NCBI GenBank assembly: GCA_022843325.1
Contig: JALHNV010000005.1
Location: forward strand, 27,158 to 91,157
Source of the DNA: Pseudolabrys sp.
GTDB lineage: Bacteria; Pseudomonadota; Alphaproteobacteria; Rhizobiales; Xanthobacteraceae
Length of the DNA: 64,000 nucleotides
Direction: 5' to 3'
Shown here piece by piece: positions 40,684-45,053 of this stretch (the first letter of the stretch is position 1; each line of letters opens with the position of its first letter). The position numbers were made by a program, and so were the translations under genes. Below the pieces are notes generated by a model. It saw only the letters and a list, made by a program, of their open reading frames with translations, did not search any database and had not been told where the DNA came from.

Positions 40684-40721
40684 GCGTCGCAGCAAACAAA
40701 TCTGCGTTCGATACGATAAAG

Positions 40722-40750
40722 CCCGGCTGAACCAGCCGGGCTTTATTTTG
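40722..40750 (+). terminator. rho-independent terminator of the phasin gene
   Basis: AAAGCCCGGCTG-AACC-AGCCGGGCTTT followed by ATTTTGTTT. Confidence 0.8.
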
Positions 40751-42132: not shown

Positions 42133-42213
42133 GATGATCACCGGCGTTTGGGTTCACCGGAATACCTAGCCGCAGGAAATAAAGGGCCGGTTTACGGGTA
42201 GGGCGAAAATCAA

Positions 42214-42243
42214 ACGCCGCGGGTAAGTTCCCGCGGCGTTTTC
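42214..42243. terminator. strong GC hairpin between the two TadG paralogs
   Basis: AACGCCGCGGG-TAAGTT-CCCGCGGCGTT with T-rich sequence on both sides. Confidence 0.7.
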
Positions 42244-42277
42244 TCGGTTTTTTTGTGGTCGGTCAGTCGCTTGCATC

Positions 42278-42338
42278 GTTAACCGGACTTGCGGGCGATG
42301 ATGCCAATGCCAGCTAGTTCTTAGACGACACTGTTAAC
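42278..42338 (-). promoter_or_regulatory. 61-bp conserved upstream element, copy 1 (before TadG paralog 1)
   Basis: GTTAA-N23-AATGCCAgctAGTTCTTAGacGACACtgTTAAC (plus-strand reading); matches copy 2 with identical spacing. Confidence 0.6.
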
Positions 42339-42354
42339 GCCCGGTTGCCGGCTG

Positions 42355-44052
42355 TTACTTGGCCACGCGCAGTTTGGTCAGGTCGGTGCCGATGGCATTG
42401 AACGCCGTGACGATCTGGCTTGCCGAGGTCAGCAGAAAGAACTTGCTGGCGTCGACGAACTTGTCCGGGCTGCCGGCGCAATTCTGCAACAATGTCGAGG
42501 TCGGATCGCCGCCGGTGTTCACCTGGATCGTATAGATCGTCACACCGGCATTCTTGATGTTGGCACAGGTGCCGGCGCCGTTGTCGTACATCCGCTTGTC
42601 GACATCGGTGTTGGTGCTGGAGCCGTTGCCGTTCCAGCGGTTGAGCGTGTTCAAACCGTCCGACAGCAGGATGATGACGTCGGTATAGGTGTAATTGGCT
42701 TCCTTGGCAGGAGCGACGAGGGGGCCGCCCCCGACCAGCGACTGCCAGCCCCAGACCAGTCCGATCGGCTGGTTGGTGGCGCCGAGCGGATACAGGCTAT
42801 CGACCTGGCTCCGCATGGCCGCCCAGTTATATGACAGGCCCGACACCTGAGGCGAGCAGTTCTCGTTCTGCTCTGCCGGATATTTCGACGCCGCGATGTT
42901 GTTGCTCGGCGCCGTCACCAGCCGGTCGTAGTTGGAGACGGGACCGGCGGCGTTGCCACGGTCGGTAATACAGCCGTTCCAGGTGCTCCGGGCATTTGGA
43001 ATCCAGGTGTGGTTGTAGCCCGTCGTGGTCGTGACGGTTTGCACACAGCGCTTGTTGTTGCCGTTGCCGCTGCACGAGCAGTTCGACCTGTTGCCGCAAC
43101 TGGCGTTACGGCCGGTATCGACGGTATTGGTCGAGGTGCTGGTGATTGGAACGCTGTTGTAGCAGCCGTTATAAATGATGCCGATCTTCGTCGAATCCTT
43201 CCGGCCCGAATCCGTGCTGGGGCAGATCAATCCGGCATTGGCGCCGCTCGAGGGGATGGTGTTGGTGGTCGAGGAACTGGTTGGGCTCGTGGCGCAACCG
43301 AAGCCGTGATTGTTGTTGGAGAAAGGGCAGGAATCGCCGGGGCCGATGTCGTTCCAGTTGTTGGGCTTGTTGTTCTTCAGGATTGCGGGCTCCGACTCCC
43401 AGTCGGTCCAGTCGATATAATTGGCATTGAAATTGCCCGCCCCAAGATTGACGTTCTTGCTGAACGGGATCAGCGAGACATAGACGTCGCCATTGACGGC
43501 GGCTGCGTCCTGCAACTGTGTCAGCAGGCTTTTGGTGGCTGTCTTCAGCGCGCCGATCTTGTTGTCCGAGTTCATGGAGCCGGTGGTGTCCAGCACCAGC
43601 GCCACGCGCAACCGTGACGTGCCCCACTTCGACGTGGATGAGCCGTTCACCGTGATCTGGTTGTAACCGATAATGCCGAGCAAATTGGTCGGCACGTCGG
43701 CCGATCCTTTGACAATAACCGTCGAGCCGCCGTCGGCCGTGTAAGAGGCGTTGATCGTGATGTTCTTGGCGTCGGGCCGGGTAAACAGAGCCTCGAAATA
43801 GGTCTTCGCCTTGGCCTGCAACTGCGTGTTGTTGAGCGTTGCGGCGTCCTTCGACAGCATCAGTGCCGTCGAGTCGAGCGCCGACTGCATCGCGGCCTTG
43901 GCTGCATTTGCGCTGCTGTAATCGACCGAAAAGCCGACGGCGGCCAGAACGGGCAGGGCGGCGAGGGCGAAGGTGGTCGCAACGTTGCCACCCCTGGCCT
44001 TTCTGAAATGTCCGAGGCTGCGGCTCAGCTTTGTCCAGAAATGCGTCATCAC
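42355..44052 (-). CDS. TadG-like pilus-assembly/VWA-domain protein (paralog 2) with Ser/Thr/Asn/Cys-rich insertion
   Basis: GGNVATTFALAALPVLAAVGFSVDYSSANAAKAAMQSALDSTALMLSKDAATL; VLDTTGSMNSDNK; IILLSDGLNTLNRW. Confidence 0.9.
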   Translation of the reverse strand: MMTHFWTKLSRSLGHFRKARGGNVATTFALAALPVLAAVGFSVDYSSANAAKAAMQSALDSTALMLSKDAATLNNTQLQAKAKTYFEALFTRPDAKNITINASYTADGGSTVIVKGSADVPTNLLGIIGYNQITVNGSSTSKWGTSRLRVALVLDTTGSMNSDNKIGALKTATKSLLTQLQDAAAVNGDVYVSLIPFSKNVNLGAGNFNANYIDWTDWESEPAILKNNKPNNWNDIGPGDSCPFSNNNHGFGCATSPTSSSTTNTIPSSGANAGLICPSTDSGRKDSTKIGIIYNGCYNSVPITSTSTNTVDTGRNASCGNRSNCSCSGNGNNKRCVQTVTTTTGYNHTWIPNARSTWNGCITDRGNAAGPVSNYDRLVTAPSNNIAASKYPAEQNENCSPQVSGLSYNWAAMRSQVDSLYPLGATNQPIGLVWGWQSLVGGGPLVAPAKEANYTYTDVIILLSDGLNTLNRWNGNGSSTNTDVDKRMYDNGAGTCANIKNAGVTIYTIQVNTGGDPTSTLLQNCAGSPDKFVDASKFFLLTSASQIVTAFNAIGTDLTKLRVAK

Positions 44053-44197
44053 GGCTCACCATCGCTAGAGAGTACGGAGGCCGTCATAAGGTCCGGTGAT
44101 AAAAGGTCGGTGTACCGGGAAGCGCGAATCCGGGTTCCGCGGTAATTGTTTGCCGACATCGTCAGCCGTTAGTGGTGCACATTCAGCGGCTTGGCTG

Positions 44198-44258
44198 GTT
44201 AAAGGTCTGTGCTGCGGAAACGGCGAATGCCACGCAGTTCTTAGCGGACACCATTAAC
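44198..44258 (-). promoter_or_regulatory. 61-bp conserved upstream element, copy 2 (before TadG paralog 2)
   Basis: GTTAA-N23-AATGCCAcgcAGTTCTTAGcgGACACcaTTAAC (plus-strand reading). Confidence 0.6.
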
Positions 44259-44705
44259 AGAATGTTGCCGCGTGCGGCTCGAGATCGCCAGGCTCCGCCG
44301 TCGATCGCTGGTCCGAAATTGCCGGGATCAGAACAATTCTCCGAGATACCGTCGTCGCAGTGAGCCAAAACCCAGGTATTTGCATAAATTCGCCGCAGAT
44401 TTGGCGCGAAACGGGTTGTTATGCCGCTGCCGAGGGCTATCTGAGCAGGGTGCCGCCGCCTGCCGTTCGATCCTCCCGGAACGGGAAAACGAAATTCCTG
44501 GGCATTTGCCACCTTGGAATGACGGTGGCGGGGTCATTATGATGCGCCGAAGGCCCGGCAAACCGGGCACTTGCCAGTTCCGCCAACCGACTACCCGACC
44601 AGAACCATGACCGCCATTGCCAGAATGACCGACAGTTCCCACATGATAGCGGCGGCGACGTCGCCCGTGGCGGCGGATGCCGCGCGGTTGCGTTCGGTCG
44701 AGCGA

Positions 44706-45053
44706 ATGGCGGACGACGATCGGAAACGCAAAGGCGGCAACCCTGGCGAACCGACCGGGCCATCGACCGCCGTCATCACCAAGACCAAGCCGCAGACCAA
44801 GCGGCCGAACATGTATCGCGTGCTGATCCTCAACGACGACTACACGCCGATGGAATTCGTCGTGCACGTCATCGAGCGTTTCTTCGGCAAGGATCATGAA
44901 GCGGCCACACGTATTATGTTGCATGTCCATCACCACGGCATCGGCGAGTGCGGAACTTTCACATACGAAGTGGCTGAAACCAAAGTGACGCAGGTTATGG
45001 ACTTTGCCCGAAAACATCAGCATCCTTTGCAGTGCGTGATGGAAAAAAAGTGA
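44706..45053 (+). CDS. clpS: ATP-dependent Clp protease adaptor ClpS
   Basis: [61 protein letters not shown]. Confidence 0.95.

Follow-up and report, generated by a model that had tools for sequence, protein, structure and literature searches.

A conserved upstream element of TadG/VWA genes in Pseudolabrys and its possible relation to CtrA-type promoters

Two tandem genes for TadG-like proteins of 457 and 565 amino acids, located in a stretch of 64,000 nucleotides of Pseudolabrys sp. DNA (the window), are each preceded by a copy of the same sequence element. This raises the question of what the element is for, which protein could recognise it and how it came to stand in front of both genes.

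Two copies of one element upstream of tandem tadG genes

A sequence-only reading of this DNA had described the composite GTTAA-N23-AATGCCA-N3-AGTTCTTAG-N2-GACAC-N2-TTAAC, whose only matches in the window, both of them exact, are indeed located at 42278-42338 and 44198-44258; in 100 dinucleotide shuffles the 61-bp pattern was not matched once. On the gene strand the two copies read GTTAACAGTGTCGTCTAAGAACTAGCTGGCATT... and GTTAATGGTGTCCGCTAAGAACTGCGTGGCATT..., respectively. The element is real, but its limits had been drawn too narrowly: the conserved unit is an ungapped block of 86 bp (Table 1). Its proposed distance of about 145 bp to the genes holds for copy B, whose near edge is 146 bp (GTG 44052) or 149 bp (ATG 44049) away from the 565-aa gene; for copy A it applies only to the later of two starts of the 457-aa gene (137 bp to GTG 42141, 146 bp to ATG 42132). 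The additional similarity noticed closer to the genes also exists and forms a separate conserved block, denoted here as the proximal block. Across all 137 contigs of the genome (3.88 Mb) only the two copies match the core CTAAGAACTNNNTGGCATT without mismatch; at three mismatches four more sites appear, the same number as in a reversed-pattern control. A profile of the 86-bp block detected the two copies with E-values of 5e-18 and 5e-17, and the next match in this genome followed at 0.21.

Table 1 Positions of the element copies, their parts and the genes behind them (window coordinates; R1 denotes a sequence-only profile of the 86-bp block)
Feature	Position	Strand	Basis
86-bp block, copy A, 5' of the 457-aa TadG/VWA gene	42264..42349	-	R1 profile, 67 bits
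86-bp block, copy B, 5' of the 565-aa TadG/VWA gene, divergent from clpS	44184..44269	-	R1 profile, 63.6 bits
CtrA-like box GCAACCGGGCGTTAAC, copy A, 11-bp period	42333..42348	-	TTAA column in 23/24 leaders; A4 and A5 invariant
CtrA-like box GCAACATTCTGTTAAT, copy B	44253..44268	-	block alignment, TTAA columns
Core CTAAGAACT-N2-CTGGCATTGGC, copy A, binding factor putative	42303..42324	-	most conserved columns
Core CTAAGAACT-N2-GTGGCATTCGC, copy B, binding factor putative	44223..44244	-	most conserved columns
Second TTAAC half-site followed by CAA-N4-CTG (GGTTAACGATGCAAGCGACTG), copy A	42264..42284	-	
Second half-site (CTTTAACCAGCCAAGCCGCTG), copy B	44184..44204	-	
Proximal block GTAAACCGGCCCTTTATT, copy A, candidate -35-region activator box	42178..42195	-	aligned TATACC-N5-TTTAAC, 24 leaders
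Proximal block GTACACCGACCTTTTATC, copy B	44098..44115	-	block alignment
Candidate -10 region (GGCTAGGTATT), copy A	42161..42171	-	inferred; aligns with the conserved TTATGA of relatives
Candidate -10 region (CCTTATGACGG), copy B	44081..44091	-	inferred from alignment
TadG-like protein, split VWA domain, 457 aa	40768..42141	-	Pfam Tad, 6.5e-11
TadG-like protein, split VWA domain, 565 aa	42355..44052	-	Pfam Tad, 2.6e-8

Both gene products feature an N-terminal Tad (TadE/G) domain (PF13400 in Pfam) and a split VWA match that is below the curated cut-off in either case (VWA_2 at 0.022 for the 457-aa protein, VWA at 0.0011 for the 565-aa protein). The divergent genes clpS and clpA (window 44571-45053 and onward) adjoin the tadG pair; the locus is syntenic, and tadG and clpS have remained neighbours in many members of the genus. 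In many genomes the element is situated between two tandem tadG genes, i.e. it tracks tadG and not clpS, which makes a control of the divergent clpS by the element unlikely. Just 3' of the 457-aa gene, a strong hairpin with a T tail (window 40715-40747) likely constitutes a terminator common to this gene and its opposite-strand neighbour.

Conservation and geometry of the leaders

In the genus, 39 of the 41 genomes yielded TadG homologues. In more than 20 of the genomes NTAAGAACT-N4-GGCATT, with a few mismatches at most, precedes one TadG gene per genome at a distance of 183-207 bp, with the reservation that leaders were anchored by protein alignment, so that the assumed start codon can deviate by a few codons from the true one. 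The 86-bp block was found in about 23 further genomes approximately 190 bp upstream of a TadG/VWA gene, usually once per genome and here twice, the single copy being a tendency as some genomes are incomplete. The block aligns gap-free in 21 sequences with the consensus nYAAC-N6-GTTAAcGACgtcGnCTAAGAACTatyCGGCATTCGC-N10-GCA-N6-GTTAACCAnCCAAGccnTTG. Whether the element is better conserved in relatives than the rest of the leader had been named beforehand as a check, and this is the case (approximately 70% versus 41% identity): the mean pairwise identity is 0.70 and 0.68 for the two block halves as compared to 0.43 for the spacer, 0.41 for the mid leader and 0.39 upstream. As leaders were selected by core matches, the core owes part of its conservation in these values to this selection. 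This bias does not touch the TTAA sites, the CAAC half-site, the lower half, the proximal block or the ungapped spacing.

The geometry of the leaders is fixed as well. In the genus the proximal block reads TATACC-N5-TTTAAC and is followed by TTATGA; it begins after the start of the 86-bp block at a distance of 151-156 bp in 24/24 leaders (154-156 bp in 23/24) with mostly variable sequence in between; the 68-70 nt after the 86-bp block are unconserved in sequence and fixed in length. Of the 24 leaders, 23 have TTAA at block column 13, 15 have it at column 68 and 19 at columns 168/169, and it occurs almost nowhere else (2.75 per leader versus 0.61 in mononucleotide shuffles). These fixed columns are in agreement with the earlier assumption of selection on TTAAC-type half-sites. 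Both copies in the window, however, have TTTA instead of TTAA as the proximal right half, which speaks against CtrA. Within the element two TTAAC-type sites, a CAAC-N6-TTAAC box and a TTAACCA-type half-site, are 55 bp apart, and the core CTAAGAACT-N4-GGCATTCGC sits between them. The candidate core promoter has no consensus -35 hexamer and features the activator-box-like TATACC-N5-TTTAAC instead; sigma-70-like promoters were not detected on the gene strand of the leaders. In leader A, the interval that separates the distal element from the proximal block additionally contains a perfect hairpin of 12 pairs (AAACGCCGCGGG...CCCGCGGCGTTT, window 42212-42241), which may be a terminator protecting the promoter behind it; among the other leaders that were folded, none had a perfect stem of this kind.

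When the R1 profile was run against the family (250 genomes), every strong match of full length was located within the genus and upstream of TadG, and other genera gave matches at noise level only, none of them beside TadG. The element is absent upstream of Flp pilin genes, and a distant blastn search of a plasmid collection yielded no match. A TTAACCATACCTTGA site is present upstream of cpaB. In three tadG leaders of Bradyrhizobium (L038, L039, L041), sites of the type TTCACCA-N4-TTTA are found at approximately -65, and a TTAATC motif is present at a greater distance from the gene; in Bradyrhizobium tadG leaders the same -65 position is occupied by TTCACCATCTGTTTA or a similar sequence, which suggests that the architecture extends past the genus in a diverged form.

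Candidate binding proteins and alternative readings

CtrA sites follow the register TTAA-N7-TTAA with a period of 11 bp. A full site of this kind is absent from the array, the best sites being NYAA-N7-TTAA, and the earlier statement that the element is not a canonical CtrA site is literally right; it missed that this TTAAC on the upstream side belongs, as right half, to CAAC-N6-TTAAC, which has CtrA spacing. In two relatives (L083 and L108) the column-13 site even reads CTAAC-N6-TTAA (CTAA-N7-TTAA). CtrA half-sites have also been described as TTAA or as an ungapped variant TTAACCAT (PMC6180460). TTAA is present at three fixed columns, and column 68, with TTAACCAG in copy B and TTAACGAT in copy A, reads TTAACCA(T/G) in many relatives, a sequence similar to this ungapped variant (PMC6180460). 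The early suggestion of a site for a cell-cycle regulator is the best reading.

CtrA itself is encoded in this genome (contig C16, 24962, 233 aa); over 80 aa it is 96% identical to the query from Caulobacter. CtrA-type boxes with at most one mismatch are in modest excess genome-wide (95 versus 76 for a reversed-pattern control). Exact TTAAC-N6-TTAAC boxes occur 11 times, some of them before genes for an MCP, CheA, a CHASE4-GGDEF protein and an Hpt protein, and boxes with one mismatch are located in front of PilZ and PodJ-like genes (the latter label was given by eye). These neighbours, which were read from the loci by eye and not against a matched control set, fit a CtrA regulon. Directly before a PAS-MCP chemoreceptor gene (C5:11625-11652) CTAAC-N6-TTAAC and TTAAC-N6-TTAAC overlap. 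A full CtrA box together with CTANNAAC was not found elsewhere in the genome. The best conserved part of the element, the core CTAAGAACT-N4-GGCATT, is not accounted for by CtrA and probably marks a second factor.

We favour, with a probability of roughly 0.58, a multi-site CtrA-type promoter of the TadG/VWA genes that includes an extra genus-specific core for a putative second factor. In this model, a conserved region that controls transcription would have the element as its upstream half. CtrA, or a close relative of the OmpR family, would bind to the TTAAC sites, the second factor would occupy the core CTAAGAACT-N4-GGCATTCGC jointly and perhaps cooperatively with CtrA, and the bound array may time or gate the transcription of one chosen tadG per genome, with two tadG genes carrying the array in the present one. 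Transcription presumably starts about 30 nt before the start codon. More tentatively, the same core could be the operator of an undescribed regulator which, with CtrA at fixed spacing, selects the single tadG paralog that is expressed per genome; in this lineage two paralogs carry the core.

Conservation and fixed geometry in combination with the lack of RNA structure are what would be expected of a protein-DNA array that acts on transcription. For the 86-bp block, the consensus fold amounts to -0.17 kcal/mol with two pairs, no compensated pair and no covarying helices; this contradicts a structured RNA leader (riboswitch or thermosensor), for which the position upstream of a gene and the strong conservation would speak and which we regard as highly improbable. 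A dedicated regulator, for which the TTAAC sites and the core CTAAGAACT-N4-GGCATT together form the operator while CtrA is uninvolved, is less likely: in its favour, no other piece is as conserved and as specific for tadG as the core, the full TTAA-N7-TTAA is never present and no other gene in the genome has the element. Such a regulator would, however, leave aside the TTAA at three fixed places, one of them in the CtrA register, the occurrence of CTAAC-N6-TTAA in two relatives and the fact that pilus genes are known CtrA targets (PMC11264516, PMC4433202).

Quite improbable, in our view, is a core promoter inside the element, in which CAAC-N6-TTAAC would be the -35-region box, CTAAGAAC the -10 and the start near GGCATTCGC, resulting in a 5' leader of about 170 nt. 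CTAAGAAC does follow TTAAC after 8 nt, and the adjacent GGCATTCGC shows the conservation that might be expected of an initial transcribed region. On the other hand, the 68-70 nt after the block are constant only in length, the proximal block and TTATGA have a promoter geometry of their own, the proximal block is retained by paralogs that lack the upper half, and in copy A the hairpin at 42212-42241 would stand between element and gene. By eye, no fit to the conserved columns was obtained with the consensus sequences of sigma-54 promoters (-24/-12), EcfG-type promoters (GGAAC-N16-CGTT) and alphaproteobacterial LexA sites (GAAC-N7-GAAC). The CAA-N4-TTG in the block tail could presumably suit IHF or NtrX; the literature search for this combination returned nothing.

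Related promoters and history of the two copies

The pilA promoter of Caulobacter crescentus contains four deviant CtrA sites (PMC11264516). It resembles the present array in that a pilus-type gene is preceded by a number of deviant TTAA-type sites, of which one is at the -35 region and the rest are more distant from the gene, and on this comparison it sets the precedent for a pilus promoter with multiple deviant CtrA sites. In contrast to pilA, the gene served here is an orphan tadG/VWA gene and not a pilin, the spacing differs and is fixed genus-wide, and the extra conserved core CTAAGAACT-N4-GGCATT is located between the sites. In Sinorhizobium meliloti, also a member of the Hyphomicrobiales, CtrA sites were detected at the promoter of the pilus gene pilA1 (PMC4433202), which resembles the present case together with other direct CtrA targets of that species. 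CtrA sites in the fla2 promoters of Rhodobacter sphaeroides end 23-24 nt upstream of the transcription start, with an A at -11 (PMC6180460). The proximal block is compatible with this arrangement, as the distance from TTTAA to the start predicted from the TTATGA of relatives would be the same 23-24 nt; unlike the present array, fla2 concerns flagellar genes with single sites and without a distal array. In the literature searched we found no description of tadG as a CtrA target or of the present array, and nothing linking CtrA to TadG, GCTANAWC, the Rhizobiales tad pilus or Pseudolabrys. The array represents a sharply defined genus-wide promoter array of fixed geometry for orphan Tad/VWA surface proteins, if the favoured CtrA-type reading is correct a possible case of cell-cycle control of surface attachment outside Caulobacter, and its specific 22-bp core offers a handle on the putative binding protein.

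The tandem copies had been taken for a duplicated unit including its promoter. This is correct insofar as both are promoter-region DNA of paralogous tadG genes, but trees and leader identity do not support a recent duplication. The 565-aa gene falls within a supported 15-row paralog group of the genus, most members of which are devoid of the full element, and the 457-aa gene branches outside this group. Between leaders A and B the identity is 64% within the element and 49% downstream of it, no higher than for leaders of different species. Since the genes belong to different paralog groups and the leaders are no closer than between species, both copies are old and separately maintained. A functionless leftover of a recent tandem duplication, as the tandem arrangement and the long similarity between the coding sequences could indicate, is contradicted by these identities and by the conservation of the element across about 24 genomes, and has next to no probability. 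In other paralogs the upper half of the element is missing, while the proximal block and in some cases the lower half are retained; tandem paralogs with a common core promoter differ in having or lacking the upstream array. Three leaders (L105, L106, L111) of a separate paralog group feature only the lower half (GGC(C/T)TTCGA, GTTTACC...CAAG) and the proximal block.
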